Below, piece after piece: positions 14,752-60,834 of a DNA stretch of 63,840 nt. Both the position numbers and the translations under genes were made by a program. The notes under the pieces were generated by a model that was not told where the DNA came from, did not search any database, and saw only the letters and a program-made list of their open reading frames with translations. The stretch is from the NCBI GenBank assembly GCA_020049855.1, contig JAGVLJ010000006.1:1-63840 (forward strand). The letters run 5' to 3'. Source of the DNA: Bacteroidia bacterium (lineage in GTDB: Bacteria > Bacteroidota > Bacteroidia > UKL13-3). Numbering within the stretch: position 1 is the stretch's first letter; the number at the start of each line of letters is the position of its first letter.

Positions 14752-14763
14752 GTGACAACTAAT

Positions 14764-16065: not shown

Positions 16066-16114
16066 AATTATTTTTTATTTACGTGATGTATGTGGTTGTT
16101 TCTTTTGCACTTTA

Positions 16115-18105: not shown

Positions 18106-18869
18106 GTATTATTTATAACCTGATATATGATTCGCAACGAAAAAATATACCTGTGGCTTTGTGCACCATTGTATCTGTTAAGGGATCAACCCCGCGCAAA
18201 GTGGGAGCCAAGATGCTGGTGTTCGAAGATGGCAGTATATCGGGCACCATTGGTGGCGGGAATTTAGAAAAGAAAGTAATTGAGAATGCATTAAATGTAT
18301 TGATTGGCAGGGAAGCGAAATTGTTTAAGCACGACTTGCTGCATCAATTAGATATGTGCTGCGGTGGTACGGTAGAAATATTTATAGAACCGATTTTGGA
18401 ACGAAACAGATTATACATTTTTGGAGCCGGACACACCGGTCACAAACTTGCACAGTACGCAGTAAACTTAGACTTCGAAATTTTTTTGATAGATGACAGA
18501 AAAGAACATCTGGACGGGTGTCGTATTCCGGGAGTAAGTAAAATGCACATGAATTTTCAGGAATCATTGCCGCTTTTGCCATTTGATGAAAATGTGTTTG
18601 CCTGTATCATGACCTACAGCCATCCAATGGACAGGGAAATATTGTCCTATTGTATCAACAAGCCTTTTGCCTACTTGGGCATGATAGGAAGTCAGCGAAA
18701 GGTTGAGGTAACCAAAAAGATGTTTGCCGAAGGATTAGGTATTACGAAAAGTCAATTGGATAAAGTGGATATGCCCATGGGATTGGACATTATGGCTGAA
18801 GGACCCGATGAAATTGCTATCAGTATTCTGGCAAAGCTGATAGACGTAAAACACAAAAAAAAGTTATGA
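18102..18869 (+). CDS. xdhC: XdhC/CoxI-family molybdenum cofactor maturation protein
   Basis: This 255-residue protein has the XdhC_CoxI N-terminal domain (CTIVSVKGSTPRKVGAKM, then GTIGGGNLE) and a C-terminal Rossmann domain (FGAGHTGHKL). XdhC proteins bind the molybdenum cofactor and help sulfurate it before insertion into xanthine-dehydrogenase-type enzymes; the client here would be HcrCA. It starts with GTG, overlapping the previous stop (GTGA), and its own stop overlaps the ATG of the SDR gene. These overlaps point to tight translational coupling. Confidence 0.88.
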   Translation: MSIIYNLIYDSQRKNIPVALCTIVSVKGSTPRKVGAKMLVFEDGSISGTIGGGNLEKKVIENALNVLIGREAKLFKHDLLHQLDMCCGGTVEIFIEPILERNRLYIFGAGHTGHKLAQYAVNLDFEIFLIDDRKEHLDGCRIPGVSKMHMNFQESLPLLPFDENVFACIMTYSHPMDREILSYCINKPFAYLGMIGSQRKVEVTKKMFAEGLGITKSQLDKVDMPMGLDIMAEGPDEIAISILAKLIDVKHKKKL

Positions 18870-19606
18870 GTAGAAAGAGAATAGCAGTGATTACCGGAGC
18901 GGCAAAAGGCATTGGAAAGGCAATTGTTCAACGGTTTGTTCATGATGGATATTTTGTCGTTGCCATTGATGTGGACGTTGAAAATGGTAAACTAATGGCT
19001 GATGAACAGGGTAAGAAAAATGTACAATTTGTACAAACAGATATTTGCAATGAAAAGGAAGTAATCGCGCTTTTTGAAAATCTGAAGACTAACTTTAGAG
19101 AATTGGATGTGCTGGTAAATAATGCAGGTATCATCCGCGATAATATGATATGGAATATGCCTGTGGAAGATTTTGATGCAGTGGTAAACATAAATTTAAA
19201 AGGTACTTGGTTGCTGTGTCGTGAAGCGGCAAAAATGATGAAGTGGCAGAATAAAGGGAGAATTGTCAATATTGCTTCCCGTGCCTGGTTGGGTAACCGC
19301 GGACAAAGTAACTACTCCGCATCGAAGGCCGGAGTAGTGGCCATGACTAGAGTTTTGGCGCTTGAACTGGGTAAATACAATGTATGGGTAAATGCAGTAG
19401 CCCCCGGATTAATTGATACACCACTCACGCAAAATCTTGATAAGGCAGTGCTGAAAAAATTGATTCAGGCTCAGCCCACTCAAACTATGGGATGCGCGGA
19501 GGATGTAGCCAATGCAGTGGCTTTTTTGGCCGATGAGAAAACTCATTTTATCACCGGCCAAACTATTTATGTGGATGGAGGGAAAAGTATTGGTGCCGGC
19601 TTGTAA
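18866..19606 (+). CDS. Short-chain dehydrogenase/reductase
   Basis: This classical SDR of 246 residues has the cofactor motif GAAKGIGKA, NNAG, a serine in NIASRAW, and the YSASK catalytic pair. The C-terminus matches FabG-like reductases (FITGQTIYVDGGKS). An aspartate after the second beta strand (AIDVDV) suggests NAD preference. It is overlapped by xdhC and followed, 82 bp later, by the reductase genes. Its substrate is unknown. An alcohol or alicyclic hydroxyacyl-CoA dehydrogenase feeding 4-hydroxybenzoate or related compounds into the pathway is possible but unsupported beyond context. Confidence 0.82.
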   Translation: MSRKRIAVITGAAKGIGKAIVQRFVHDGYFVVAIDVDVENGKLMADEQGKKNVQFVQTDICNEKEVIALFENLKTNFRELDVLVNNAGIIRDNMIWNMPVEDFDAVVNINLKGTWLLCREAAKMMKWQNKGRIVNIASRAWLGNRGQSNYSASKAGVVAMTRVLALELGKYNVWVNAVAPGLIDTPLTQNLDKAVLKKLIQAQPTQTMGCAEDVANAVAFLADEKTHFITGQTIYVDGGKSIGAGL

Positions 19607-19688
19607 TTACCCAAGGCAGTAGAGGGTAAGATTAGGGTAGAGGTTTTTTCCAATGCGGGGTACTTAAACACTATAAAGAAAGAACTAA

Positions 19689-22484
19689 ATGAATCAGATT
19701 AAGTTAAAGATAAACGGAAAAAGTTTTGACCTGCTGGTAGGCGATCAGGAAATGCTCTCCACGGTAATTCGCGAAAAGGCGGGTTTAACCGGAACAAAGA
19801 TTGGCTGTGAACAGGGAAGTTGCGGTGCATGTACGGTACTGGTCGATAACAAACCCGTTCTGAGTTGTATCACCCCCGTGATGCGGTTTAATGGAGCCGA
19901 TATAACTACCATTGAGGGGGTTTCTCATAATGGGAAATTACATCCCCTTCAGGAAAAGTTTGTAGAGAAAGGAGCGGTACAATGCGGATTTTGTACTTCA
20001 GGAATGACCATAACGGCTCTCGATTTTGTTAATAAGAATCCGAATCCTTCCCTGAACGAAATTAAGGATGCCCTATCCGGAAATTTGTGTCGGTGCACAG
20101 GTTATAAAAAAATAATAGAGGCGGTAAGTGAATATGCTATTGAAAAACTTTTAGGCAAACAGCCTTCAAACCACGCCAAGCCTTCCAAAGGTGGAACAGT
20201 AGGGGTAAGCCGACCATACATTGAAGCTGCAAAAAAAGTTCAGGGAATTGCCGACTATGCGGATGACATAAAACTCAAAGGTTCGCTGAAGGTAAAATTT
20301 GTACGGAGTATTTTTCCTCATGCTAAAATTGAATCTATTGATACCGCAGAGGCATTAAAGCTGGAAGGGGTGCGCTATATTGCTACGGGAGTTGAATTAC
20401 CCGTGACTTTTGGCGTTTTACCTATTTCTCAGGACGAAAATGCAATAGCTATCAAAAAGACCCGATACGTTGGGGAAATTGTGGCCGCTGTTGCTGCCGA
20501 TTCGGAAGAAATTGCGGAGGCAGCCTGCAAAATTATCAAAGTACATTATACCCCGTTAAGGGAATTTTTAACTATTGACGATTCATTGGCCGATGTTGGA
20601 GAATATGAAAAGATACACCCGGAGCATGGTAAACAAAATAATAATGTTCACAAAAAAGCAGAGTTGCGTTTTGGTGATCAGGAACAAGGATTAAAAGATG
20701 CGGAGGTTGTAAGTAAAATGTCATTCGAAATGGAAGGCATAAACCATGGATTTACTGAGCCACATGCGGCTTCTGCTTATTGGGATGAAAATGGATTAAC
20801 CGTAATCTCTGCTACTCAGATATCGCATTACCTGCATCGTGCATTAGCCAAAACTATGGAGATTCCTTTGAACAGGGTTAGGGTAATTAAACCGTATGTT
20901 GGCGGTGGATTTGGAGGAAAAGGCGATCCGTTTCCACACGAGATTATTGTAGCTCACCTGGCTCGTAAAACCGGCAAACCTGTTAGTGTTAGGTTGACAA
21001 GAGAAGAAGTTTTTTTGACAAACCACGGTCGCCATCCTTCAAAAATGACTGTACAACTTGGGGCAGATAAAAACGGAATGTTGAAAGTACTTGATGCCGA
21101 TATAGCTATTGACGGTGGGGCATACGGAAGTTTTGGAGTGGTTACTTCTTATTACAATGGAGTGCTTTTACAGGCTCCTTACAAGTTAAATAATTTTGGT
21201 TTCAGAACATACAGGGTGTACACCAACAAACCTCAATGTGGTGCCATGCGCGGACACGGTGCCGTGAATTCCCGTTTTGCCGTGGAGTCATTGATTGATG
21301 ATATTTCACACAAATTAAAAATGGATCCCGTAGAATTACGAATGAAAAATTTTCTCGATTCTCATACCCTAACAGTTGGTCAGTATCGAATCACTTCTAA
21401 CGGAAGCCGGGAGTCTGTTCAAAAAGTGGCCCACCAATCTGACTGGCAAAACAAGCATGGCAAGATGCCTTTCGGTCATGGATTTGGCGTGGGGTGCGGA
21501 TTTTTTATCAGTGGTAGTGCCTTGCCAATTATATGGAATGAATTGCCTCAATCTACCGTTCACCTCAAAGTTGATTTTGACGGAAGGGTACTTATTGCTT
21601 CGGGGGCAAATGATATCGGACAAGGGAGTGATACCATGCTTGCAATTATTGTAGCGGAGGTGCTGGGTATAAGTATGGATAAGATTTTTGTGATTGCGGC
21701 CGACACCTTAATCACGCCTGTTGATCTGGGGTCATACTCAAGCAGGGTTACATTTATGGCCGGCAATGCGGCAAAAAATGCAGCTGAAAACCTGAAAAAG
21801 GAAATTGCTTTGGCCGTAGCAACTAAGTTCAACCTAAGCGTGTACGACCTGTATTTTTCAGATAACAAAATTTTCAGTAATGATAAACAGGTAGACATTG
21901 ACTGGCTGGCCGGTGTCGAAATTGTTACGGCCAACAGGGGTGCTGTGACTGTGAGCGGGAAATACATTTCACCAAAACTGGGCGGAGACTTCAAAGGTGC
22001 CGGTGCCGGTTTAAGTCCTTCATATTCCTTTGGAGCTTGTGTGGCTGAGGTGAAAGTGGAAACCGAAACGGGGCATGTTAAAATTTTGAATGTATGGGGT
22101 GCCCACGATTGCGGAAAGGCATTGAACCCAATGGCTGTGGAAGGACAACTGGAAGGATCATGGCATATGGGAATAGGACAGGCCATGAGCGAGGAAATGA
22201 ACTATTACAACGGACTTCTGGTAAATAACAATTTTTTGGATTATAAAATTCCTACTGCTCTTGATACCCCGGACTTTCATACCAATATCATTGAGACAAA
22301 TGACCCGGAAGGGCCATTTGGTGCTAAGGAATGCGGGGAGGGAGCTTTACATCCGGTTATACCGGCAATTGCCAATGCTATTTATGATGCCGTTGGGGTA
22401 CGAATTACCAAATTGCCGATAAAAAGCGAAGAAGTACTGCGGCTAATGAAACAAGCTAAACAGAAGAGCGAACAAATGGTATAA
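19689..22484 (+). CDS. hcrA: 4-Hydroxybenzoyl-CoA reductase, fused iron-sulfur (HcrC) and molybdenum (HcrA) subunits
   Basis: This single chain of 931 residues equals the sum of the separate HcrC (about 161) and HcrA (about 769) of Thauera. Residues 1-160 hold two [2Fe-2S] sites: CEQGSCGACTVL...C, then QCGFCTSGM...NLCRCTGYK. Residues 175-931 are the molybdopterin domain with GGGFGGKGDPF, AMRGHGAVNSRF, GQGSDTM and the active-site glutamate region GAKECGEGALHP. It removes the phenolic hydroxyl from 4-hydroxybenzoyl-CoA, giving benzoyl-CoA for BcrCBAD. The identity is fixed by the partner hcrB; without it, aldehyde oxidase or xanthine dehydrogenase would be alternatives. Confidence 0.88.
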   Translation: MNQIKLKINGKSFDLLVGDQEMLSTVIREKAGLTGTKIGCEQGSCGACTVLVDNKPVLSCITPVMRFNGADITTIEGVSHNGKLHPLQEKFVEKGAVQCGFCTSGMTITALDFVNKNPNPSLNEIKDALSGNLCRCTGYKKIIEAVSEYAIEKLLGKQPSNHAKPSKGGTVGVSRPYIEAAKKVQGIADYADDIKLKGSLKVKFVRSIFPHAKIESIDTAEALKLEGVRYIATGVELPVTFGVLPISQDENAIAIKKTRYVGEIVAAVAADSEEIAEAACKIIKVHYTPLREFLTIDDSLADVGEYEKIHPEHGKQNNNVHKKAELRFGDQEQGLKDAEVVSKMSFEMEGINHGFTEPHAASAYWDENGLTVISATQISHYLHRALAKTMEIPLNRVRVIKPYVGGGFGGKGDPFPHEIIVAHLARKTGKPVSVRLTREEVFLTNHGRHPSKMTVQLGADKNGMLKVLDADIAIDGGAYGSFGVVTSYYNGVLLQAPYKLNNFGFRTYRVYTNKPQCGAMRGHGAVNSRFAVESLIDDISHKLKMDPVELRMKNFLDSHTLTVGQYRITSNGSRESVQKVAHQSDWQNKHGKMPFGHGFGVGCGFFISGSALPIIWNELPQSTVHLKVDFDGRVLIASGANDIGQGSDTMLAIIVAEVLGISMDKIFVIAADTLITPVDLGSYSSRVTFMAGNAAKNAAENLKKEIALAVATKFNLSVYDLYFSDNKIFSNDKQVDIDWLAGVEIVTANRGAVTVSGKYISPKLGGDFKGAGAGLSPSYSFGACVAEVKVETETGHVKILNVWGAHDCGKALNPMAVEGQLEGSWHMGIGQAMSEEMNYYNGLLVNNNFLDYKIPTALDTPDFHTNIIETNDPEGPFGAKECGEGALHPVIPAIANAIYDAVGVRITKLPIKSEEVLRLMKQAKQKSEQMV

Positions 22485-34103: not shown

Positions 34104-34159
34104 TGACTTTTATCACTTTTAAAGTTGAGAACTATCAGATAAAAACTTGATTACCGTCA
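34104..34159. promoter_or_regulatory. Three-site Crp/Fnr-like operator array of the NrfD module
   Basis: TGA-N6-TCA dyads start at 34104 (TGACTTTTATCA), 34126 (TGAGAACTATCA) and 34148 (TGATTACCGTCA), again with an exact 22-bp period. The centre of the last is 30.5 bp upstream of a perfect TAACTTTG -7 box. All three dyads have intact half-sites. Confidence 0.78.
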
Positions 34160-34678: not shown

Positions 34679-36055
34679 ATGAAAAATAAAATAAAAAATT
34701 CAATCCCCTATTTCAGTGTGTTATTTCTTTTTGTGTTGGCCCTTGCCTGTAAAAAAGATTATAATTACGAACCGCCTAAACCACCACAAGCAGGTCAAAC
34801 CAACACCCTTGAGGCATCGCCCACACTTATAGCTCCTAAGGACGTGAATCATTCGTACTGGAACACGGCAAACTATTATAAAGTAGTAGCCGAAAACATG
34901 AGTACAGGAACGCTTTATACTGACGGTTGGCTTAATATGACCGGAACTTTTGATGGATTAAGTGATTTTAATGAAGGAAATAATCCTAACCTCGTACTAA
35001 AGGCCGCATACGATCAGGAGAATTTATACATTCTTGCCGAATGGCGTGATACAACTGTAAATCTTTCACAGGGCAGTTGGTTATTTTTTGGCCCCAGCGA
35101 TCCTAAAAAAGGAGATAACGCTGATAACTGGACCTCACAGCGCAATGCGGATCACATAGCTTTTGCGTTTGATGTTGATGGCAATGCCAGCGGTGCTGCG
35201 GGCACATTTGCATCGGTTGGATGTCAGGCATCCTGTCACGGCACAGGGCCTTCAGCTAATATGCAACCGCTAGCAGGCAAGGTTGATATCTGGGATTGGA
35301 ATATGGCCACTTCAGTGCCTATGAATTACGTACATGATAAAATCTCAACCGCCTCAGGTTTCAGTGATGATGCCGGAACTCCGGTTGCCGTACGCAATGC
35401 AAAAATTTTAAGCGACCCTTCACGTTCAGGCCCGGCTTACGAGTCCGATTCCAGCAACCAATATTATACAAATCCATTTGGGCAAAAAGTATTACTCAAT
35501 AAAGCATTCTATATACTAAACAAAACCGATATGGTGGGCAATGCAGCTGATGGAAGAGCCATTTTTGAGGATCCAGATAAGTGCTTTTCATGCCATGGAG
35601 CCGGTGGTACTGGAGGAAGCGATGATTTGCCCGTCAACGGAATAGCACAAAACAAAAAATCAAGACTGGCATTAATGACACGAATGGACAATGTACCAGA
35701 CATGACCCCATATTGGTCTCCATTATCTGCTTCGCAAAAAGACGATGTAATCGCTTACCTGCGCGGACTAAGCGGTGTTCCCGGGTATTACCTACAAGTG
35801 CCTTCCGGCAGTTGCAGTGATATTACCACTATGTCGAATATTACACCTATTAATATTGACAATGCTATGGATGAGGACAAAAATCGGCACGGAACCTATA
35901 AAGTACTTATTATCCGGAAGCTTAAAACTAATAATGCAGATGACGTGCAGTTTGACCTTACCAAATCAAGGGAATACAAATTTGGGGTGGCCTTAATGGA
36001 TAATGATGGTAAAAATCATATAGGATCTAAAGTAATTACGTTAACTTTTAAATAA
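34679..36055 (+). CDS. Multihaem lipoprotein with ethylbenzene-dehydrogenase-type haem domain
   Basis: This 458-residue exported lipoprotein has a lipobox LALAC (C24) after a hydrophobic signal. The N-terminal two thirds resemble the haem-b-binding EB_dh/gamma-subunit fold of type II DMSO-reductase-family enzymes (NLVLKAAYDQENLYILAEWRDTT, then DHIAFAFDVDG). It also carries an unusual CxxxCH (C182-C186-H187) and a normal CxxCH (C302-C305-H306) haem-c motif. It opens a module with an NrfD-type subunit but no molybdenum alpha subunit. A periplasmic or surface electron carrier is likely. The haem content is predicted, not known. Confidence 0.78.
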   Translation: MKNKIKNSIPYFSVLFLFVLALACKKDYNYEPPKPPQAGQTNTLEASPTLIAPKDVNHSYWNTANYYKVVAENMSTGTLYTDGWLNMTGTFDGLSDFNEGNNPNLVLKAAYDQENLYILAEWRDTTVNLSQGSWLFFGPSDPKKGDNADNWTSQRNADHIAFAFDVDGNASGAAGTFASVGCQASCHGTGPSANMQPLAGKVDIWDWNMATSVPMNYVHDKISTASGFSDDAGTPVAVRNAKILSDPSRSGPAYESDSSNQYYTNPFGQKVLLNKAFYILNKTDMVGNAADGRAIFEDPDKCFSCHGAGGTGGSDDLPVNGIAQNKKSRLALMTRMDNVPDMTPYWSPLSASQKDDVIAYLRGLSGVPGYYLQVPSGSCSDITTMSNITPINIDNAMDEDKNRHGTYKVLIIRKLKTNNADDVQFDLTKSREYKFGVALMDNDGKNHIGSKVITLTFK

Positions 36056-36063
36056 AAATTATT

Positions 36064-36441
36064 ATGAAGAAAATATTTATATCTTCTTTTTTACTTACGC
36101 TGACTTTTGTTACGGCTTGTAAAAGAGATTTTTTTGAAGCTCCTCCACCCCTTGATTTAGCCACACCGGTTAGCTTTAGCTTAGATATTATGCCAATTTT
36201 TAAGGCTAATTGTTACGGCTCCGGTTGCCACAACACCGGAACCGTACCCGATCTTTCGGAAGGTAATGCATATGACCAACTCACACAACTTGGTTATGTT
36301 GATACCACCAATGCAGAAGGATCAAAAATTTACATTAGAATTACGGATGCAAACAAACCTATGCCTCCAGGTGGAACTATGCCCGGAGAGGAAACCAATA
36401 AAATTTTAGCGTGGATTAAACAGGGAGCAAAGAACGACTAA
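36064..36441 (+). CDS. Small cytochrome c-like lipoprotein with CX4CH motif
   Basis: This 125-residue lipoprotein has lipobox FVTAC (C19). The only haem motif is C50-x4-C55-H56 (CYGSGCH), one residue wider than CxxxCH and two wider than the standard. A methionine in KPMPPGG (M100) could be the distal ligand. It lies 8 bp after the previous cytochrome gene. Spaced haem motifs of this type occur in Bacteroidota cytochromes, so attachment is plausible. Confidence 0.75.
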   Translation: MKKIFISSFLLTLTFVTACKRDFFEAPPPLDLATPVSFSLDIMPIFKANCYGSGCHNTGTVPDLSEGNAYDQLTQLGYVDTTNAEGSKIYIRITDANKPMPPGGTMPGEETNKILAWIKQGAKND

Positions 36442-36459
36442 TTTGAAACAGCACCAAGT

Positions 36460-37374
36460 ATGAAAAAAATAAATAATAACTCAGTAAACGTAATCAGAAT
36501 TGTATTTTACACTCTTCTGGTTTGCCTTTGGACTCCATTGGCCAATGCACAGGATAACAACCCCTCACCCACGGTTGATCCTGTTAAGAATACCTTTGAA
36601 AACAGTATTTCCATCAACAACCAAACTATTGAAACCAACAATAAACATGAATTAGGGTTTCTCATTCAGCACAGGTTTGGTGTTATAAAGGACGGGACTG
36701 ACCTTTACGGTATTTATGCACCGGCCAATATTCGCATGGGTTTAAATTATGGGATCACTAAAAAACTTACTATCGGAGTAGGAGTTACTAAATCCAGAAT
36801 GCAGTATGATTTGGAATGGAAGTATAAGATTCTTAGCCAACGTAAAGGAAGTGGTTCACCGGTTTCGCTTGTTTATTACGGAGATATTGCCCGCAGCGGA
36901 GCACCCGATTCCAAATTCCGCAATCAGGACGGAAAGATAATAGGAAGCAATCGTCTCACTTTTTATCATGAATTGATGGTGGCTCGAAAATTTACTGACA
37001 AATTCTCGGCTCAGTTAGGAATTAATTATTCACACCAAAATATTGTTGACAGCATTACCCTTACTCACGATCGCATTGGGGTATCACTAATTGCCCGGTA
37101 TAAATTCAGTCCTCAGTCATCGGTACTGTTAGGGTTCAATAAAAATATCATATCGTTTGATAACAATTTGAAACCATTGAATAATCCAAAAGATCCGCTG
37201 AAATCTGATTTTTCTGTGGGATATGAGGTATCCACGGGAAGTCACCAATTTCAAATTTTCCTTGGTTCGGCCGATGGAATACTGAACCAAGATGTTCGTT
37301 TTTTTAATACCAACAATTTCTTCAAAAAAGAAATACTGATTGGATTTAATATAACCCGTCAGTGGGGCCTTTAA
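36460..37374 (+). CDS. Outer-membrane beta-barrel protein, DUF5777-like
   Basis: This 304-residue exported protein has a signal peptide ending near ANAQ, then many alternating beta strands typical of an outer-membrane barrel, ending in an aromatic-containing strand (FNITRQWGL). It resembles the DUF5777 family, often found near cytochromes in Bacteroidota. Between two haem lipoproteins and the inner-membrane components, it could be the barrel of a porin-cytochrome conduit or a plain porin. The function is inferred. Confidence 0.7.
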   Translation: MKKINNNSVNVIRIVFYTLLVCLWTPLANAQDNNPSPTVDPVKNTFENSISINNQTIETNNKHELGFLIQHRFGVIKDGTDLYGIYAPANIRMGLNYGITKKLTIGVGVTKSRMQYDLEWKYKILSQRKGSGSPVSLVYYGDIARSGAPDSKFRNQDGKIIGSNRLTFYHELMVARKFTDKFSAQLGINYSHQNIVDSITLTHDRIGVSLIARYKFSPQSSVLLGFNKNIISFDNNLKPLNNPKDPLKSDFSVGYEVSTGSHQFQIFLGSADGILNQDVRFFNTNNFFKKEILIGFNITRQWGL

Positions 37375-37402
37375 TAACAGACACCTTTTAAAAATCGACC
37401 TT

Positions 37403-38341
37403 ATGAATGAGAACGAAAATTCAGGGACTAGTCGAAGAAATTTCCTGAAACTTGGATTGCTTTCCGGTGGTTCAGTAATTGCCGGAGCAGGTATTACCAA
37501 TCTGGTTAGCTGTGATGAAAAAAAGGAATCCGGTAAAAAGGTAAAAGTACTTACTGCCGATGGAAAATTGGTAGAAGTTGACAGTTCGCATGTACATGAA
37601 GGCAAATTTGAAAAGCTGGCCAATCGCGAAATACGTGAAGGAATTGAAGGACGTAAATTTGTGATGGTAATAGATTTGGCTAAATGCGCCAATGCCCGTA
37701 AATGTATTGAAGGCTGCCAGAAAATGCACTTCAAGCAATCACCCGTTGAGTGGATTAAGGTGAAAAAAATGCAGGATGCTCAAACAACCGCACCTTACTG
37801 GATGCCGCAACCATGTTTTCATTGCGATAATCCGCCTTGCACCAAAGTTTGCCCGGTTGATGCTACATTTAAACGGCAGGATGGTATTGTTTTAATTGAC
37901 AATGAACGATGCATAGGCTGTCGCTTTTGTATGGCCGCATGTCCTTACAATGCTCGTTCATTTAACTGGGGCGAAAACTGGGGGCAGTCAGTGCAGCAAT
38001 CAAAAGAATGTCATTCTTCTGCTTATTCTCCTGAAACAGGCAGTCCATCTGTAATGGGTACAGTAGAAAAATGTGATTTTTGTGCGGATATGGCCAAGAA
38101 AGAAGAATTACCTGATTGTGTAACGTCTTGTCCCAACGGAACCATTTTTTATGGTGATGCCAACGAAGATTCGGTAACAAACGGAGAAGATACTTTCAGG
38201 TTAAGTGAACTGATTAAAAAACGTGCAGGGTATCGTTATCTGGAAGAACTGGGAACCGAACCGCGTGTATATTACCTGCCTCCTGTAAATCGCGATTTCG
38301 CTTTTGAAGAAGATACAGAAGTTCACAACACACATGAATGA
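37403..38341 (+). CDS. Tat-exported ferredoxin-type electron-transfer subunit
   Basis: This 312-residue protein has a twin-arginine signal (SRRNFLKLG) and several 4Fe-4S motifs, as in PsrB, NrfC or TtrB (CFHCDNPPCTKVCPVDA, CIGCRFCMAACPYNA, CDFCADMAKKEELPDC). The first motif is CANARKCIEGC: the usual second cysteine is alanine, so that site may hold a [3Fe-4S] or altered cluster. It would pass electrons between the NrfD-type membrane subunit and periplasmic cytochromes. A cysteine soon after the Tat segment (NLVSC) could make it a lipoprotein. Confidence 0.88.
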   Translation: MNENENSGTSRRNFLKLGLLSGGSVIAGAGITNLVSCDEKKESGKKVKVLTADGKLVEVDSSHVHEGKFEKLANREIREGIEGRKFVMVIDLAKCANARKCIEGCQKMHFKQSPVEWIKVKKMQDAQTTAPYWMPQPCFHCDNPPCTKVCPVDATFKRQDGIVLIDNERCIGCRFCMAACPYNARSFNWGENWGQSVQQSKECHSSAYSPETGSPSVMGTVEKCDFCADMAKKEELPDCVTSCPNGTIFYGDANEDSVTNGEDTFRLSELIKKRAGYRYLEELGTEPRVYYLPPVNRDFAFEEDTEVHNTHE

Positions 38342-38363
38342 TAATTAATAATTAGCTTTTACC

Positions 38364-39728
38364 ATGGAACATCATTCAAATTTAACAATAGAACAGCAAA
38401 AGATTGAACGGGAAAGAATGCGGGCAGCCGTATTAAAGCCGCTTCGAACTTCTACCATCTGGAGCAAGCTCTGGATTTTTTTCCTTGTTACTGTAATTGG
38501 CATTGGGTTGTATGCTTATTATATTCAATTATCCAACGGTCTTAAAGTAACGGCTCTGCGCGATTATGCTTCATGGGGAGCATACATTTCCAATTTTATC
38601 TTTTTTGTGGCTATCAGCCTTTGCGGATCTTTGATATCATCCATACTACGCCTCACCAATTTTGAGTGGCACTGGCCCATTACGCGTATTGCCGAAATCA
38701 TTGCTGTTTCGGCCATCATGTTTGCCGGGCTTATCATTATTGTTGACATGGGTAGACCCGACAGAATTTATTACCTGTTTATGTACTATCGCCTGCAATC
38801 TCCCATTGTTTGGGATGTGGTAGTAGTGGCAACTTATTTCACAGTAAGTTTCCTGTTTCTTTATTTTCCGCTGCTGCCAAGTATTGCCATGTGCCGCGAT
38901 TTACTTACCGAAAAACCTAAATGGCAAAGGAAGATGTATAAAATTCTGGCACTTGGCTGGGATGGTAATCATGCCCAATGGAAAATAGTGAAACGTTGTG
39001 TAAATATCTTGAGTATTCTTGTGATTCCCTTGGCTGTTTCTATTCACACCGTTACTGCATGGTTATTTGCCACCACCCTGCGCCCGGGATGGGACAGTAC
39101 CAACTTCGGGCCTTACTTTGTCGCTGGGGCTTTCTTAGCCGGAACAGGTTGTGTTATTCTTGGAATGGCCGTGTTCAGAAAGGCTTATCATCTGGAAGAA
39201 TACATTACAGAAAGACATTTCAATTTTATGGGTAAACTGATGGTTTTTTTATGCCTGATTTATACTTACTTTAATGTAAACGAATACCTGGTACCAGCCT
39301 ACAAAATGAAAGTAGCCGAATCACATCATTTAAACGAGTTGTTTACCGGGAACGAGGCCTGGTTGTATTGGTCAATACAGATTATTGGGATGGCCTTGCC
39401 GGCTTTGCTGCTTTTGTTAAAACCATTCAGAAAACCGATACCGCTTACTGTTATTGCCTTTTTTGTGGTGGTAGGAGCCTGGCTTAAACGTTACATTATT
39501 GTTTCACCCATTATGCTCAATCCATATTTGCCCATTCAAAATGTTCCGGATAATTGGAAACATTATTTTCCCACTTGGGTCGAAATTGCTATTATCTCTG
39601 CTTCGCTGGCAGGGGTACTTTTTATAATTACATTGTTCTCCAGATTTTTTCCTATCATATCAAATTGGGAGGTATTGGAAGGAAAAGGAATTGACCTTGA
39701 AGAACTTGACGAAAAAACTCAAAAATAA
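38364..39728 (+). CDS. NrfD/PsrC-type membrane quinol oxidoreductase subunit
   Basis: This integral membrane protein of 454 residues has about ten predicted transmembrane helices and NrfD/PsrC likeness (IVDMGRPDRIYYLFMYYRLQSPIVWDV). Such subunits exchange electrons between menaquinol and an attached iron-sulfur subunit, here the preceding gene. No catalytic molybdoprotein is encoded in the module. It starts 22 bp after the ferredoxin gene. Confidence 0.88.
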   Translation: MEHHSNLTIEQQKIERERMRAAVLKPLRTSTIWSKLWIFFLVTVIGIGLYAYYIQLSNGLKVTALRDYASWGAYISNFIFFVAISLCGSLISSILRLTNFEWHWPITRIAEIIAVSAIMFAGLIIIVDMGRPDRIYYLFMYYRLQSPIVWDVVVVATYFTVSFLFLYFPLLPSIAMCRDLLTEKPKWQRKMYKILALGWDGNHAQWKIVKRCVNILSILVIPLAVSIHTVTAWLFATTLRPGWDSTNFGPYFVAGAFLAGTGCVILGMAVFRKAYHLEEYITERHFNFMGKLMVFLCLIYTYFNVNEYLVPAYKMKVAESHHLNELFTGNEAWLYWSIQIIGMALPALLLLLKPFRKPIPLTVIAFFVVVGAWLKRYIIVSPIMLNPYLPIQNVPDNWKHYFPTWVEIAIISASLAGVLFIITLFSRFFPIISNWEVLEGKGIDLEELDEKTQK

Positions 39729-39737
39729 ATTGCCATT

Positions 39738-40313
39738 ATGAAAAGGGTTATAATTTTGAAATGTAAACGGGTTATGCTATTTTTGGGCATGGGGTGTTTA
39801 GCAATATGTGCTCAAGGTCAAGACGAGGAGGCTGTTGCAGCTTCCTTAAATTTGAAGTTGCAGCCAAAAGATACCCTCACCGTTTGTGCCGCCACACTTG
39901 CCACTAATGAAGGCAAGCCGATTTCTGAAGTAGAAGTACGGTTTTACATAAAACGCAGCTTTGGGTTATTGCCCATAGGCGAAGCGGTTAGTACAGACGA
40001 AAATGGAGAGGCATCGGTACCTTTTCCACTTGATATTCCCAAAGATTTTGGGGGCAAAGTAACTGTAATTGCCAAAATTGAAGATGATGAAAAGGTAGGG
40101 TCGCTTGATGCTGAGGTGGTAACTACCTCATTGGGCATAAACCCTAAGCATACTGATGAATGGAATAAAAGGTCATTATCTGCTTCGCGGGAAAAAGTTC
40201 CCTGGATGTTAATGTTTGCTTCCTACAGTATTATTGCGGGTATTTGGGCAACCATTATATATGTGGCATACCAATTGTTTGCTATAAAGAAGCTAAGAAC
40301 TAAAAAAAGCTAG
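39738..40313 (+). CDS. Exported membrane-anchored protein of the NrfD module
   Basis: This 191-residue protein has a signal segment (ending near CAQGQ), a periplasmic beta-rich domain of about 110 residues resembling an Ig or carrier-type fold (KPISEVEVRFYIKRSF, DENGEASVPF), and one C-terminal transmembrane helix with a basic tail. I do not recognise a named family. Its position between nrfD and a cytochrome suggests an assembly or scaffolding role. Confidence 0.7.
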   Translation: MKRVIILKCKRVMLFLGMGCLAICAQGQDEEAVAASLNLKLQPKDTLTVCAATLATNEGKPISEVEVRFYIKRSFGLLPIGEAVSTDENGEASVPFPLDIPKDFGGKVTVIAKIEDDEKVGSLDAEVVTTSLGINPKHTDEWNKRSLSASREKVPWMLMFASYSIIAGIWATIIYVAYQLFAIKKLRTKKS

Positions 40314-40348
40314 GTAACAACGTACACAACCATTTTAATTCTAATATT

Positions 40349-40768
40349 ATGAATACAAATTTCAAGAAAATTTTCAGTGCAGTTTCAGTAGTTTCTTTCA
40401 GCTTTTTTGTAATGAGTTTCTCGGTAAATGATGGTAAACCAGCGGGTAAACCTTGGAATGCACCAGCCGATGCAGTTAAAAAAACTAACCCCATGAAAGG
40501 ACCTGAGGCTTTAAAACAAGGCAAGGATCTGTACAGCCAGCATTGCAAATCATGCCACGGGGTTAAAGGAAAAGGTGACGGGCCAAAAGCTGAAAAAATT
40601 GATATTTCATGCAACGATTTCTCTACAGCAGAATTTGCTAAAATACCGGATGGAGAATTGTATTGGAAACTCACGGAAGGACGCAAACCAATGCCTTCAT
40701 TTAAAGAAAAACTGAGCGATAATGAACGATGGGCTGTAATTTTGTACGTTAAATCACTAAGTAAATAA
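40349..40768 (+). CDS. Periplasmic monohaem cytochrome c
   Basis: This 139-residue protein has an N-terminal signal or anchor and a single CKSCH motif (C66-C69-H70) followed by GVKGKGDG. A methionine in RKPMPSF is a likely distal haem ligand. It closes the module and may link the quinol-oxidising part to the lipoprotein cytochromes or a terminal reductase. A strong terminator follows 17 bp after the stop. Confidence 0.85.
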   Translation: MNTNFKKIFSAVSVVSFSFFVMSFSVNDGKPAGKPWNAPADAVKKTNPMKGPEALKQGKDLYSQHCKSCHGVKGKGDGPKAEKIDISCNDFSTAEFAKIPDGELYWKLTEGRKPMPSFKEKLSDNERWAVILYVKSLSK

Positions 40769-40935: not shown

Positions 40936-41145
40936 TTAAATCCAAAAAAATGTTATTGGCCTCTTTGCGTTCCGTAATTCGAGGTATTCTTCACCTTTCA
41001 ACCTGTTATGTAACGTAAAGCTATTTTTATAGGCGTTGCTGCTGTTGGGTCTTAATTCTTCTTCGGTCAAAAAGCAACGGAAACTACCATTCATTATTGG
41101 GGATGCATCCAAATTTTTATCATAAAATAGGGTGATGGAAATCAT
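40936..41145 (-). CDS. Small hypothetical protein
   Basis: A 69-codon frame with ATG start. The sequence has balanced composition (MISITLFYDKNLD..., KGEEYLELRNAKRP) that looks more protein-like than random, but I recognise no family. It stands alone on the minus strand. A single TGA-N6-TCA at 41133 overlaps its first codons and is probably chance. Confidence 0.35.
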   Translation of the reverse strand: MISITLFYDKNLDASPIMNGSFRCFLTEEELRPNSSNAYKNSFTLHNRLKGEEYLELRNAKRPITFFWI

Positions 41146-41232: not shown

Positions 41233-42057
41233 ATGTTCTCATTGTCTTTACGTTTATTGCTTAAAAGCTGTAGCACAAAATCTGTAGCGGGTTTATTAGA
41301 ATTGTCACTTCTCTTGCTCCTATGCAATTCGGTACAGGCACAAGAGCCTATTCCTTCTTTCACGCACCATCAGGAAAGCTGGCAATTGCATCCTGCCGAT
41401 AGTCATTCAATTTCAACTAATGTAGATGACGAACGGGAGCATCCGAAACATGAAAATTTGGAAACAGAGATGGAACTTTATCCGTTAAATATGGTGATAA
41501 TAGATGAGCCGGTGATAAAAAGCGAAGCCATGTTTGACTACCACCAACACTCTCATACTGGAAAAATGCTGGGAGGTATTCGTTTTTATGCCAATACCAA
41601 TACTCACTGGGCAAAAACCCGAGATATGAAAGATCTAATACTTTACAGCGAAGCATATTACGGATTCAAACATTTTCAACTGGGTGGTGAAACAGGAAGT
41701 ATTACGGGGGAGGAGTTTATGACCATTGGCCCGCAGTTTGCTGTTTATGACAACAAAATATTTAAACGCGGAGCACTGATTACACGTTTATTTCCTGATT
41801 ATGTCTTCGGGTATGAATATACCACACAGGAAGCACACCTTTTTCATGGAATGACCCTTTCATCAACGGGAGTGGCACGCTTAATAGCCCCATCAAATAA
41901 GGCGATTATTCAGGGTGCAGTCTGGGTTTCATTTAGGAGGTTGCACGGATTATACTTTGGAATAGAGTATGAGCACAATAACTCAAAGTATTTTAATACC
42001 TACAAATTCGAGGTAAACGATGAACTTTTTCTTGGAATAAAAGCTGAATTACATTAA
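41233..42057 (+). CDS. Exported protein, probable outer-membrane barrel
   Basis: I do not recognise this 274-residue protein. It has a signal peptide (cleavage near VQAQE), a histidine- and glutamate-rich segment (about 40-110, with HHQ, EHPKHEN and YHQHSHTG), then alternating beta strands with aromatic residues to the C-terminus. The histidines suggest metal binding. It stands alone downstream of the NrfD-module terminator. Confidence 0.65.
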   Translation: MFSLSLRLLLKSCSTKSVAGLLELSLLLLLCNSVQAQEPIPSFTHHQESWQLHPADSHSISTNVDDEREHPKHENLETEMELYPLNMVIIDEPVIKSEAMFDYHQHSHTGKMLGGIRFYANTNTHWAKTRDMKDLILYSEAYYGFKHFQLGGETGSITGEEFMTIGPQFAVYDNKIFKRGALITRLFPDYVFGYEYTTQEAHLFHGMTLSSTGVARLIAPSNKAIIQGAVWVSFRRLHGLYFGIEYEHNNSKYFNTYKFEVNDELFLGIKAELH

Positions 42058-52255: not shown

Positions 52256-52951
52256 TTACTTTCGGTGACAATTTTTCACATGTTTATGATCAGAACTGAG
52301 CTTAGGACTCAAATATGGTATCCCCAAATTCATTCCTCTCAGAATAAAAATGCACCCGATAAGAATGGCGAATACAGGTGTGAGTTTGCGAAAAATGCCT
52401 CGTGTTTTTACAGATACAAATTGCCCAAAAATTGAAACCCCAAACATGAGCGGAAAAGTTCCTAAACCAAAAAAGAACATAAACAAAGAACCCTGCAAGG
52501 CACTTTGAGTTGCTACCGAACCGATAAGCCCTACATAGACAAAGCCGCAGGGTAAAAGGCCGTTTAACAGGCCAATTAAAAAAAGGGCTCGCATACTTCG
52601 TAGTTGAAACAATTTCTGAATAACATTTCCCCTTAGCAACGAAAATGGATTACCTATTTTTTTCTCGAGCCATGCCGTACTGAAAATACCTGTTAAAACA
52701 ATAAGCCCCCCGGCTGTTATGCTTACCCCTTGCTGAATACCGGCCAGTTTCAATCCCCAGCCAAAGCTTCCCAATAAAAATCCAAGAAGACTATACGTAA
52801 ACAAGCGCCCGAAGTTATAGAGTACACGGCCAAAAATTTTCTCCCCGTTTGTATGCCCTACCACAGGCAAAGCCATAGCAATGGGGCCACACATTCCCAT
52901 ACAATGCATACTCCCCAAAAGTCCGGTTAAAAAAGCGATCTGAACAAACAT
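52256..52951 (-). CDS. Sulfite exporter TauE/SafE-family membrane protein of the cco cluster
   Basis: This 231-residue membrane protein has about six transmembrane helices. It opens with the motif FLTGLLGSMHCMGMCGPIAMALP, whose cysteines and histidine can bind metal, and has GLLNGLLPCGFVYVGLIGS. Such proteins regularly follow ccoG/ccoH in Bacteroidota and are suspected copper or cytochrome-oxidase assembly factors. It starts 3 bp after fixH and ends the operon. Confidence 0.85.
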   Translation of the reverse strand: MFVQIAFLTGLLGSMHCMGMCGPIAMALPVVGHTNGEKIFGRVLYNFGRLFTYSLLGFLLGSFGWGLKLAGIQQGVSITAGGLIVLTGIFSTAWLEKKIGNPFSLLRGNVIQKLFQLRSMRALFLIGLLNGLLPCGFVYVGLIGSVATQSALQGSLFMFFFGLGTFPLMFGVSIFGQFVSVKTRGIFRKLTPVFAILIGCIFILRGMNLGIPYLSPKLSSDHKHVKNCHRK

Positions 52952-52954
52952 GAT

Positions 52955-53410
52955 TTATTGTACATAAAACTCTTTACTGAACGCCACTGGTTTTCCGGCT
53001 AAACTCCATTCACAGGTAACTTTCCACAAACCGATTTGCATGGAAGCAACGGATACCACTATGTTGCCGGAAGTATCCGTCATCAGTTCATTTTTAAAAT
53101 CTTGTTTTGAATCCGATGCCCGGTAAAAGGTAAGTTTTGCCCCTAGGTTGTTTGCTCCGTTCAGGTGTACAAGCACCTGCTGTTTCCCTGCCACATATTG
53201 AAAAGTAAAATCACGGTTTTCTCTGGCAGAAAACTTATCGAGTTCCGTCTGGTAATTAATTCCCTTCTCATAATAATCGTCAGCCACCAGTTCTACTGAC
53301 TGACGCGAAATATAATAGACCATGCCAAGTATGAAAAGCATGAAGCTTACTGCGAAAAAAACCAATTTATGCCCCCAGTGAATTTTCATAAAGCGTATAA
53401 ATAAAAACAA
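52955..53410 (-). CDS. ccoH: FixH/CcoH-like oxidase assembly protein
   Basis: This 151-residue protein has an N-terminal membrane anchor (residues 10-32) and a periplasmic beta domain (YYEKGINYQTELDKFSARENRDFTF, LWKVTCEWSLAGKP). The YYxxGxxYQxxLDK motif is typical of FixH-type proteins, which assist cbb3 oxidase assembly and copper delivery. It lies between ccoG and the safE-like gene. Confidence 0.86.
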   Translation of the reverse strand: MFLFIRFMKIHWGHKLVFFAVSFMLFILGMVYYISRQSVELVADDYYEKGINYQTELDKFSARENRDFTFQYVAGKQQVLVHLNGANNLGAKLTFYRASDSKQDFKNELMTDTSGNIVVSVASMQIGLWKVTCEWSLAGKPVAFSKEFYVQ

Positions 53411-53419
53411 TAATAACTG

Positions 53420-54847
53420 CTAATTTAATACAGGTCCTACAAAATTAGTCTTAATTTCATCCATAAGCACGCCATTGCTGTAAACCTTTATGGTAGCAGG
53501 TGTGTTATTTTCCTGAATATATTTTTTATCAAGGATAAGAAAAAAAGAGCCTTTGATAATATCATCCTCTTTAAGTTGCAGTACACTTTTCTCCCTATCA
53601 ACCATCTTTAAGGTAATATGTTCGGGCGAGACAACTTTTATTTCTACCTGCTGTTCGGCAAAAGTTTTATTGACTACTTCAAAATTATACATATTACTTA
53701 CATCATGACCTGTTTGGTTTTGAAACAGCATACCGGGAGTACGTAATACTACGGCTTCTACCTCGTTGCGGGTTAAAAGGAGATAACTTAATACACAAAT
53801 TAAACAGGTAAGTACGCCCATATACGCTGCACTCCTGAATGTAATTCGCTTAACACTTCCTTTTGCTATTTCTTCCTGCGAAGCATACCTGATTAATCCA
53901 TGTGGTTTATGCATGCGTTCCATCACGTCATTACATTCATCAATACATGCCGTACAATTTACACATTCCAGCTGTGTTCCGTTTCTTATATCAATACCTG
54001 TTGGGCACACATGCACGCAGCGATGGCAATCCACGCAATCCCCCAAATTTTCCGACTCATTACGTTTGTGCTGCCCCCTGGGTTCTCCTCTAATAAAATC
54101 GTAGGCCACAACAATAGAATTTTTGTCGAGCATAAGTCCCTGAAGTCTTCCATAAGGGCAAACCACTATGCACACCAGTTCGCGCATTTTTGAAAACACA
54201 ATGTAGAATACAATGGAGAAAATACATAAGGCAATAAACTGCCCTAAATGTTGAGAGGGCCCATCGGTAATTAGTTTTTCAATTTCATCAATACCTATTA
54301 AATAAGATAGAAATGTATTGGCAATAAAAAACGAAAGCAGGAAAAACACAATATTTTTGGTGCCGCGCTTTAGTAGTTTTTCTCCATTCCACCGCATTTG
54401 GGTAATACGCTTCTGATCCTTTGCATCACCTTCAAAAAAATATTCTATTTTTCGAAAAAGCATCTCCATAAAAATAGTTTGGGGGCAGGCCCACCCGCAC
54501 CACATTCGGCCAAAAACCACCGTAAATACAATGATAAATACTACGAAGGTGAGCATTAAAAGGGCAAACAGGGGCAAATCCTGAGACCAGAACGGAATAC
54601 CAAAAATGATAAACTTACGCTCCAGAATATTTAGCAACAAAACAGGATGCCCATTAATTTTCATGAAAGGCCCAGAGAACATTAATGCCATTAAGGCAAT
54701 ACTAAACCATGTGCGTCCGGTGTATAATCTCCCACTCGGTTTTTTTGGAAAAATCCAGTTACGGTTACCTGTTCGTTCATCAACTACTCCAATTGCATCT
54801 CTGAAATGGTTAGGTGCCTGGCTGTCCTGCTGAACGTTCTTGGTCAT
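53420..54847 (-). CDS. ccoG: Cytochrome c oxidase accessory protein CcoG
   Basis: This 475-residue polyferredoxin has four or five transmembrane helices and a conserved GRMWCGWACPQTIFMEMLFRK motif. Two 4Fe-4S clusters lie in CHRCVHVCPTGIDIRNG and CVNCTACIDECNDVM, followed by a C-terminal periplasmic Ig-like domain. CcoG reduces copper for insertion into cbb3 oxidase. It is separated from ccoP by a terminator, so it may depend on read-through or its own promoter. Confidence 0.94.
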   Translation of the reverse strand: MTKNVQQDSQAPNHFRDAIGVVDERTGNRNWIFPKKPSGRLYTGRTWFSIALMALMFSGPFMKINGHPVLLLNILERKFIIFGIPFWSQDLPLFALLMLTFVVFIIVFTVVFGRMWCGWACPQTIFMEMLFRKIEYFFEGDAKDQKRITQMRWNGEKLLKRGTKNIVFFLLSFFIANTFLSYLIGIDEIEKLITDGPSQHLGQFIALCIFSIVFYIVFSKMRELVCIVVCPYGRLQGLMLDKNSIVVAYDFIRGEPRGQHKRNESENLGDCVDCHRCVHVCPTGIDIRNGTQLECVNCTACIDECNDVMERMHKPHGLIRYASQEEIAKGSVKRITFRSAAYMGVLTCLICVLSYLLLTRNEVEAVVLRTPGMLFQNQTGHDVSNMYNFEVVNKTFAEQQVEIKVVSPEHITLKMVDREKSVLQLKEDDIIKGSFFLILDKKYIQENNTPATIKVYSNGVLMDEIKTNFVGPVLN

Positions 54848-54871
54848 ACTATGCTAAATGTTACAGTTGTA

Positions 54872-54901
54872 TAAAAAAACAAACCCCTTCATAAGAAGGG
54901 G
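54872..54901 (-). terminator. Terminator after ccoP
   Basis: On the minus strand CCCCTTC-TTAT-GAAGGGG (54901-54884) is followed by TTTGTTTTTTT, a standard intrinsic terminator 7 nt past the ccoP stop. It separates the structural oxidase genes from ccoG-fixH-safE and may lower expression of the assembly genes. Confidence 0.85.
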
Positions 54902-54908
54902 TCGGTTA

Positions 54909-55790
54909 CTATTTTTGTGTTGTATCCGCCTTTTGTACAGTTAATGAATCGGGGACGGCAGCCGGGACTCCTTCCGGAATATATTTTTCGCCCTGCGGTT
55001 CTTTGGCACCGGGAGGGTTTGTTCCTTGTAAAGAAAGAATGTAACTGGCTACTTCCTGCATTTGGGCAGCGTTTAATGTGTTTTGCCATGCCACCATTCC
55101 CTTGGCCGGCATCCCATATTTAATTGTTTTAAAAACATTTTTAATTCCACCCCCATGAATCCAGAATTCGTCAGTTAAATTTGGTCCAACTTTTCCCTCT
55201 CCTTTTTCACCATGACAGGCTGCACAACGGGCAATAAAAGTAACAGCCCCTGCCTCTATTTTTCCTTTCTCTGTTAATAGGGTTACACTGTTTTCATCAA
55301 TAAGGTTTCCTGCTTTTTTCAGGTACTCCTGCTTTTGCTTTTCGGCAAGCACCAATTCGTTTTCAAATTCTTTTCCTTGCAAGGGAGCCATATAAGCCAC
55401 ATGATAAATAAGGAGGTAAAATATGGCAAAAACTACGGTTCCGTAAAACAACACATTAAACCATGTTGGAATGGGATTATTTAATTCTTTGATACCATCG
55501 TAATCGTGGTCCAGTTCAATATCTTTCTCTGCCGCCAATGGTTTAAGTGAGAGTAGTTTTTCCCATCCGGAGCGGCTGTCTTCGTATTTACTCGCTCCTT
55601 CCTGTTCGGCTTTTATTACGTTTACTACTTTTTGCAAGGTAAACACTACCATTACCAAAACAATTGTAAGAACGAAAATAATTGCCATAAGAATTCCATG
55701 AAATGTGGCAATAGGTTGCGGGGCGGCTCCTTGTGCTCCTGCTGTAAAGGTTAATGCCAGCAACAAAGCGGTTATATTAATCTTTTTCAT
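54909..55790 (-). CDS. ccoP: cbb3 oxidase cytochrome c subunit CcoP
   Basis: This 293-residue subunit has an N-terminal signal or helix, a transmembrane segment around residues 115-135 (WFNVLFYGTVVFAIFYLLIYHVAYM) and one C-terminal haem-c domain with CAACHGEKGEGKVGPNL. Proteobacterial CcoP usually has two haem domains; one is common in Bacteroidota. A methionine near GMPAKGMVAW is the likely second ligand. A second hydrophobic helix at about 28-55 gives the longer N-terminus. Confidence 0.92.
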   Translation of the reverse strand: MKKINITALLLALTFTAGAQGAAPQPIATFHGILMAIIFVLTIVLVMVVFTLQKVVNVIKAEQEGASKYEDSRSGWEKLLSLKPLAAEKDIELDHDYDGIKELNNPIPTWFNVLFYGTVVFAIFYLLIYHVAYMAPLQGKEFENELVLAEKQKQEYLKKAGNLIDENSVTLLTEKGKIEAGAVTFIARCAACHGEKGEGKVGPNLTDEFWIHGGGIKNVFKTIKYGMPAKGMVAWQNTLNAAQMQEVASYILSLQGTNPPGAKEPQGEKYIPEGVPAAVPDSLTVQKADTTQK

Positions 55791-55803
55791 ATTGTGTCAG
55801 GTA

Positions 55804-55965
55804 TTAACTGTTTTTTTCTAATGGAAGGTTTTTCATTTTTTGAATATACGATTTATCAACTCTTATCACCCACCAAAGCAGGCCGATGAAAAAGGTAATG
55901 AAAATCATCATGGAGAATATCAGATACCCTTCCATTCCCGTGACATTTGCTAAAAACTGTTTCAT
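55804..55965 (-). CDS. ccoQ: cbb3 oxidase small subunit CcoQ-like
   Basis: This 53-residue protein starts MKQFLANVTGMEGYLIFSM, has a single transmembrane helix (residues 14-36, ending in LLWWVIRVD) and a short basic tail. It lies between ccoNO and ccoP, the CcoQ position. CcoQ stabilises the cbb3 complex. Confidence 0.8.
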   Translation of the reverse strand: MKQFLANVTGMEGYLIFSMMIFITFFIGLLWWVIRVDKSYIQKMKNLPLEKNS

Positions 55966-55985
55966 ATTATATCTGGAATTAAGGG

Positions 55986-58115: not shown

Positions 58116-58150
58116 ATTAAGTTCGGTTTTATTTTATTACAAACGTGTGA

Positions 58151-58158
58151 CAAAAGTA
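58151..58158 (-). promoter_or_regulatory. Predicted -7 box of the ccoNO promoter
   Basis: The minus strand reads TACTTTTG, an exact TAnnTTTG match, starting 30.5 bp from the centre of the proximal dyad (58183-58194). The start of transcription would be near 58146, with a leader of about 30 nt. Confidence 0.7.
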
Positions 58159-58182
58159 CTTTTTACAGCTATATTTTGAAAA

Positions 58183-58216: not shown

Positions 58217-58230
58217 TGTCAATTCTGTTT

Positions 58231-60827: not shown

Positions 60828-60834
60828 TCAGAAG

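Follow-up and report, generated by a model that had tools for sequence, protein, structure and literature searches.

Seven genes at positions 34679 to 40768 of the window (the whole stretch of 63,840 nucleotides that was analysed) encode a ferredoxin and an NrfD-type membrane protein together with haem lipoproteins and an outer-membrane barrel. This raises the question of what such a unit does when no catalytic molybdoprotein is encoded with it. To our knowledge, the electron route to the NO and N2O reductases of Bacteroidota is not settled. NosZ is common in Bacteroidota (89 of the 247 class genomes sampled have it), so their electron supply matters. This block of seven genes most likely encodes a membrane unit that, at low oxygen, moves electrons out of the quinone pool and on to small haem proteins, and it is most likely found mostly in NO- and N2O-reducing bacteria.

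All seven open reading frames are intact and are read in one direction, on the forward strand. The first (34679 to 36055) encodes a lipoprotein with an EB_dh fold (Pfam, E=1.4e-18) and an inserted monohaem cytochrome c domain (CXXCH). A conserved CX3CH motif lies within the EB_dh fold, with C182, C186 and H187 near-invariant, and the structural model matches NxrC (7b04_C, 8.6e-8) and EbdC (2ivf_C, 2.5e-6) in Foldseek. The second (36064 to 36441) encodes a small haem lipoprotein of 125 aa that has a CX4CH motif and no match in the Pfam search; most of its 52 homologues share CX4CH and the rest have CXXCH or a different spacing. The third (36460 to 37374) is a DUF5777 outer-membrane barrel (Pfam, 5.3e-69), whose model (pLDDT 88.7) has 12 long strands and gives porin-like structural matches. 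We found no mention of DUF5777 in the literature searched, which is not proof of novelty. The two haem lipoproteins and the barrel of the preliminary description are thus present as described, and its export signals can be recognised in part. KKD and KRD directly follow the lipobox cysteines (CKKDY and CKRDF, respectively), as had been noted. The optimal lipoprotein export signal is C-X-K-(D/E)2-X (PMC5080379), and both sequences come near to it but fall short of a full match.

The remaining four genes form the core. The ferredoxin (37403 to 38341; Pfam 4Fe-4S) has a twin-arginine start that predicts Tat export and four clusters. It retains 15 of the 16 cysteine ligands; motif I is without its second Cys and is predicted to hold a [3Fe-4S] or altered cluster. 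The next gene (38364 to 39728; Pfam NrfD, 2.4e-33) encodes a predicted NrfD/ActC-like quinone-reactive membrane subunit. It is followed by a protein with an Ig-like periplasmic domain (weak Big_1 match) and a C-terminal transmembrane helix (39738 to 40313), a putative anchor for cytochrome c that in three other loci (L102, L124 and L128) carries a fused cytochrome c domain. The block ends with a periplasmic monohaem cytochrome c, cytC (40349 to 40768; Pfam, 2.6e-14), a conserved core member. None of the seven gene products is a multihaem protein.

The nearest solved relative of the NrfD protein is ActC (profile A1, E about 1e-76; 31% identity). Its S146 corresponds to ActC S164, a serine that quinone-reactive NrfDs are reported to conserve strictly, and D128, D151 and R376 correspond to known quinone-site and gate residues. 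The quinone-site Ser, the TMH2 Asp/His and the gate Arg are all present, in keeping with the quinone-reactive pair proposed earlier. The TMH2 proton-exchange position is Ala in 19 of 89 NrfDs, which counts against the menaquinol reading favoured below. ActC Asp253 is Leu in this protein, a position given no weight in the argument on function. A first impression that the quinone site had been lost (Leu for His in 'GIGHAG', Ile for Ser in 'RSAE') was rejected: these substitutions fall at other positions, and the protein retains the residues that the literature names. The protein belongs to a separate clade (99% SH-aLRT) in a tree that did not include DsrP, QrcD, NrfD and MccD references. Against the DsrP model it reaches 125.8 bits, below the curated cut-off of 350. 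The ferredoxin scores best against DsrO (179.3 bits, below the curated cut-off of 200), with 108 against NrfC (cut-off 378) and 83.4 bits against the type II beta model TIGR03478 (cut-off 480.7). By these comparisons the closest relatives, distant in both cases, are ActC for NrfD and DsrO for the ferredoxin, and for this reason the earlier framing of the operon as part of a type II DMSO-reductase-family complex is misleading. Only the EB_dh fold is shared with that family; the ferredoxin and NrfD lie far below the type II models.

The reported absence of a catalytic molybdoprotein holds at every level. No alpha (Mo-bisMGD) subunit was found in the operon, in homologous operons, or elsewhere in the genome, which is 99.4% complete and whose only PF00384 protein is a formate dehydrogenase that appears to be cytosolic. 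A molybdenum subunit consistently adjacent in homologous operons would have pointed to rearrangement here, and those operons lack it as well. Across Bacteroidota the core of ferredoxin, NrfD and Ig-like anchor, most often with cytC, was present in 68-82 of 82 loci. Because the core with its cytochrome c is found in about 80 named Bacteroidota loci, with a molybdoprotein almost never adjacent, the missing subunit is not a local loss. Cultured carriers include Flavobacterium fluvii, F. franklandianum, F. soyangense, Solitalea agri, Niastella vici and Limnovirga soli. The outer-membrane triad (EB_dh lipoprotein, small haem lipoprotein and barrel) is missing from many core operons. A survey of NrfD proteins lists for Bacteroidetes only ActC/F and two NhcC, although it predates many of the genomes used here (PMC8076601). 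A literature search combining NrfD, ethylbenzene dehydrogenase and Bacteroidetes found nothing. The module is widespread in Bacteroidota and seems not to have been described before.

The shared operator of low-oxygen type that had been described also exists. Two copies of the FNR/CRP-type motif TGAY-N4-RTCA, TGACTTTTATCA (34104 to 34115) and TGATTACCGTCA (34148 to 34159), lie upstream of the operon, and another (58205 to 58216) precedes ccoNO, the cbb3 oxidase gene on the minus strand (55986-58115). The window holds 10 copies against 3.5 +/- 1.7 in shuffled sequence, and 10 were reached in 0 of 100 shuffles. The motif is enriched family-wide: in the same loci its density is 3.28/kb before module operons and 0.90/kb before other operons (about fourfold), and it is present before 40 of 66 and 21 of 116, respectively (p=1e-8). 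Within this genome it also precedes the nos, norCB and ccoNO operons. A CRP/FNR-family protein with N-terminal cysteines C8, C11 and C22 (61771 to 62478, minus strand; Pfam and sequence) is a candidate regulator of the operator.

Co-occurrence points to particular respiratory enzymes. The class-level sample comprised 247 genomes, 24 with the module and 223 without. Cytochrome-c NO reductase (cNOR) was found in 17/24 module genomes and 39/223 others (p=1.3e-7), and NosZ in 19/24 and 70/223 (p=7e-6); tested by genus, the values were p=3e-5 and p=3e-4. Among 62 genomes at family level, 14 of 15 module carriers had NosZ (p=4e-6) and 14 of 15 had NOR (p=8e-7). In L176, norCB lies about 2.5 kb downstream of the module on the same strand, and in L177/L178 the module is surrounded by NarK, RIC-like and FNR-like genes and norCB. 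The co-occurrence of NorBC and NosZ and the direct norCB linkage in one genome favour the earlier suggestion that the module is a donor for a reductase whose gene lies elsewhere. Other candidate partners were not supported. NarG showed no association at class level (4/24 versus 27/223, p=0.5), and neither NrfA nor NarG is a consistent partner by genome co-occurrence; this genome has no PF02335 (NrfA) match at 1e-40. NirK was above cut-off in only 6 of the 62 family genomes, of which four carry the module and belong to one genus, and NirS gave only weak, partial PF02239 matches. Since 39 of the 223 module-less genomes carry cNOR, the module is not required for it. Co-occurrence and the shared operator indicate co-regulation and lifestyle, not electron flow.

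We favour, at a probability of roughly 0.55 and on sequence evidence, a low-oxygen menaquinol:cytochrome c complex of the NrfCD kind that works without a molybdenum subunit and has cNOR, NosZ and cbb3 oxidase as acceptors. NrfD would oxidise menaquinol at its periplasmic site. The electrons would then cross the Tat-exported ferredoxin by way of its four clusters and reach the monohaem cytochrome c, kept beside the ferredoxin by the Ig-like membrane protein. From there they would reach the periplasmic acceptors; we infer this direction, these partners and the localisation. As in NrfCD/MccCD, a periplasmic four-cluster ferredoxin and NrfD would feed c-type cytochromes without a molybdoprotein. 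The module differs in that the genome is without NrfA, the NrfC score is low, and the last carrier is a monohaem cytochrome held by an Ig-like anchor. If true, such a dedicated low-oxygen quinol:cytochrome c link fills a gap in the electron supply of NO and N2O reductases and adds one more respiratory complex to those surveyed for Bacteroidetes. The preferred reading accounts for the core. The outer-membrane triad, which it does not explain, would be a swappable add-on, with electron buffering, outer-membrane electron exchange or passage of small molecules as candidate roles.

Against this reading, alternative complex III could do the same job, and a genuine one is encoded separately in this genome (at C73). 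The module would work alongside this constitutive complex, under control of an FNR-type regulator. The two are alike in that ActC is the nearest solved NrfD relative, both follow a quinol to cytochrome c logic, and both are found in Bacteroidota. The module, however, is without the ActA multihaem protein, the ActB molybdopterin-like domain and ActF, and the missing Cys is in motif III of ActB but in motif I of the module ferredoxin. A bolder and rather unlikely proposal is that the module is a short, molybdopterin-free equivalent of alternative complex III and that its swappable triad exchanges electrons between the quinone pool and the outer membrane or surface in NO/N2O respiration.

A general low-oxygen or nitrosative-stress branch, running mainly to oxygen reductases and tied to denitrification by lifestyle only, seems a similarly slim prospect. 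In L116 the module has ccoNO nearby and in L128 a CtaD-type oxidase, ccoNO shares the operator, and both cNOR and NosZ are absent from three module genomes (G194, G196 and G221), of which two have NrfA and NarG; these genomes count against the preferred reading as well. The norCB linkage in L176 speaks against it.

The surface conduit of the preliminary description, from quinol through NrfD/ferredoxin and cytC to outer-membrane haem lipoproteins and extracellular acceptors, is also improbable. Haem lipoproteins with near-optimal export signals and a barrel do share one operon, as in the MtrCAB porin-cytochrome conduits, and four Flavobacterium loci (L099, L107, L111 and L122) have a hexahaem lipoprotein in place of the EB_dh protein, that of L099 matching MtrC/MtrF domain II/IV at 1.3e-7. 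However, MtrB has about 26 strands and holds a cytochrome; a porin-cytochrome wire is unlikely here because the barrel has just 12 predicted strands, too narrow for one, and an MtrAB-like route through it was ruled out on size. The operon has no decahaem MtrA-like protein or other multihaem wire for the barrel, many core operons lack the triad, the export signals match incompletely, and a conduit does not predict the cNOR/NosZ association.

Reverse flow, from a periplasmic or outer-membrane donor through cytC and the ferredoxin to the menaquinone pool, is less probable again. QrcABCD, a proven quinone reductase (PMC13059093), is the precedent; the top family scores are to DsrO, DsrP and QrcC/D, and NrfD has Asp at the QrcD/DsrP position. 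The likeness to DsrMKJOP is limited to the DsrO and DsrP scores, which are under the cut-offs, and the operon lacks DsrM, K and J. No donor enzyme recurs in the neighbourhoods of homologous loci, and it is the acceptor-side cNOR, NosZ and oxidases that co-occur and share the operator. A remnant or rearranged type II DMSO-reductase complex (EbdABC, NxrABC, SerABC) with its alpha subunit elsewhere, suggested by the EB_dh fold, is ruled out for practical purposes by the beta score (the beta-like ferredoxin is of another type), by the lack of a second DMSO-family alpha candidate in the genome and of alpha in homologous operons; moreover, the module EB_dh protein differs in its CX3CH motif and inserted cytochrome c domain.

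Downstream of the block, a possible accessory outer-membrane protein (41233 to 42057, forward strand; cluster 37) has its own operator copy (41133-41144); only two other loci, L082 and L091, have it after cytC.

The operon at 34679-40768 (plus strand) comprises seven intact, co-directional genes in a 2.9 Mb Bacteroidota assembly of 99.4% completeness. Pfam identified an EB_dh domain with a cytochrome c domain, DUF5777, 4Fe-4S domains, NrfD, and cytochrome c (cytC). No Pfam family matches the second protein (cytS, 125 aa), whose CX4CH haem motif is shared by most of 52 homologues. The preliminary description reported no catalytic molybdoprotein, and indeed none was found in the operon by gene calls and Pfam. 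A PF00384 search of the genome returned a single protein: a formate dehydrogenase that has a NuoF-like neighbour and is presumed cytosolic, since no export signal is visible. Gene calling around the module covered 24 family loci and 80 named loci spanning the phylum. The absence is not a local loss: no molybdoprotein occurs among the recurrent gene clusters inspected. In these clusters and in the part of the flanking genes scanned with Pfam, NarG in locus L124 is the single molybdoprotein adjoining a module.

Family NrfD matches form three groups: the module (48-88% identity; 16/64 family genomes), the near-universal ActC of alternative complex III (ACIII; about 31-35%), and weak ActF-like proteins. 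The closest solved relatives of the module NrfD are ActC chains, from which it separates as a well-supported clade in a quick tree with a long ActF branch and reference DsrP and QrcD left out. Of the quinone-binding and gating residues named for the NrfD family (PMC8076601), the module NrfD keeps S146 (S164 in ActC), D128, D151 (D169) and R376 (R395). D128 occupies the position of ActC H139, which is Asp in DsrP and QrcD; of 89 homologues, 60 have Asp there and 19 have Ala.

In the module ferredoxin, which has 15 Cys, motif I is without its second Cys; in ActB the missing one is instead the second of motif III. Most readable homologues have Ala, Leu, Glu, Val or Lys at the motif I position; the Cys is kept in three and is also present in the ferredoxin of this genome's second module. 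By sequence, the protein may carry a [3Fe-4S] or otherwise altered cluster. In NarH-type subunits it is the cluster of motif I that faces the alpha subunit, and by analogy an altered cluster would fit the absence of that subunit. The second module (locus L037 on contig C23, 2953-6706; NrfD identity 48%) has a ferredoxin with the full 16 Cys and an NrfD of the His-Ser subtype, and adjoins a porin-like protein and a small haem lipoprotein.

The core of ferredoxin, NrfD, Ig anchor and cytC recurs across the loci, and more than half of the core loci have an attached triad, putatively at the outer membrane, of variable lipoprotein, cytS and barrel. The variable slot holds EB_dh with or without an inserted cytochrome, a YceI-like lipoprotein, a dihaem lipoprotein or, in Flavobacterium (L099, L107, L111, L122), a hexahaem lipoprotein; the only one scanned, from L099, matches MtrC/MtrF domain II/IV and cytochrome c552 models. 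The best evidence that anchor and cytC act as one unit is their fusion in L102, L124 and L128. The EB_dh lipoprotein model (pLDDT 79) matches NxrC and EbdC, with a conserved CX3CH within the EB_dh fold and an additional cytochrome domain inserted at about 289-365. The barrel, modelled with 12 strands (pLDDT 88.7), is predicted to be too small to sheath a cytochrome. The K- and D-rich export signals described after the lipid cysteine come close to the optimal surface signal C-X-K-(D/E)2-X (PMC5080379) in the triad lipoproteins, and a full match is not reached. In L077 (540-794) and 19 other loci, the gene immediately 5' of the ferredoxin encodes a protein of about 84 aa with a Tat signal, which resembles the ferredoxin N-terminus but has no clusters. 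L059 (15133-16800), L079 (2072-3052) and L094 (14931-15944) have proteins with 10 to 11 CXXCH motifs near their modules.

The suggestion that the module is a donor line to a reductase encoded elsewhere is favoured by co-occurrence. NosZ is found in 14/15 module carriers versus 26/62 family genomes overall (p=4e-6), and a NOR-type COX1 match in 14/15 versus 24/62 (p=8e-7). In a class sample of 247 genomes (completeness at least 85%), the 24 with the module were compared with the 223 others for NosZ (19 versus 70, p=7e-6), cNorB of cytochrome-c NO reductase (cNOR; 17 versus 39, p=1.3e-7), NarG (4 versus 27, p=0.5) and NrfA (2 versus 4, p=0.1). Both NosZ (p=3e-4) and cNOR (p=3e-5) remain significant when collapsed by genus; these tests take genomes or genera as independent, without a tree. 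Since 39 genomes have cNOR without the module, it is not required for cNOR. In L176 the module is followed by norC-norB on the same strand, and in L177 and L178 norCB lies close by, together with NarK, RIC-like and FNR-like genes. Other modules are linked to narGH (L124), terminal oxidases (L116, L128) or molybdenum-cofactor genes (L107, L111, L130, L181). Contig C27 of this genome unites norCB, a CRP/FNR regulator and a nos cluster (cytochrome c, nosZ, nosB-like, nosL, nosD, nosF, nosY).

Menaquinol would reduce NrfD, which would pass electrons to the ferredoxin and on to cytC held on its anchor; cytC would then supply periplasmic NO, N2O or O2 reductases. This electron direction, like the partners and energetics, is putative, and ACIII is the obvious alternative donor. 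In a survey of NrfD families (PMC8076601), the entries for Bacteroidetes are limited to ActC/F and two NhcC, and DUF5777 is mentioned in none of the papers searched. We rate the module as NrfCD-type with a distinct subunit set.

The shared operator mentioned earlier exists: its motif, TGAYN4RTCA, precedes the module operon, ccoNO, usp-copA genes, nos, norCB and the second module, and the window holds 10 copies versus 3.5 expected. Because the motif was chosen after viewing this window, independent evidence comes from the cross-locus test: density reaches 3.28/kb ahead of module operons, against 0.90 ahead of other operons and 0.18 overall, and the motif precedes 40/66 module operons versus 21/116 others (p=1e-8). 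In roughly one sixth of the loci, genes of the CRP/FNR family, in some cases encoding N-terminal cysteines, are found no more than about ten genes from the module. The signal behind the operator is probably low oxygen. Positions 52256-62478 of the window encode the cbb3 oxidase (ccoNO, ccoP), ccoG, a CopA-type ATPase and a CRP/FNR regulator; the operator recurs there at 58205 and 61755.

An aromatic-degradation region occupies 392-17278 (minus strand) and 17503-22484 (plus strand). It encodes benzoyl-CoA reductase subunits B and C above NCBIfam cut-offs (695.9 and 470.8 bits), a BcrAD-type ATPase, beta-oxidation enzymes, and a molybdenum enzyme like 4-hydroxybenzoyl-CoA reductase (under cut-off) with MobA-like and XdhC-like genes. 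To our knowledge, anaerobic benzoyl-CoA metabolism would be unusual in a Bacteroidota genome. Between the benzoyl-CoA reductase genes and the divergently oriented MobA/XdhC genes, three operator copies fall within 80 bp (17384, 17406, 17450), which suggests that these genes may belong to the same low-oxygen regulon.
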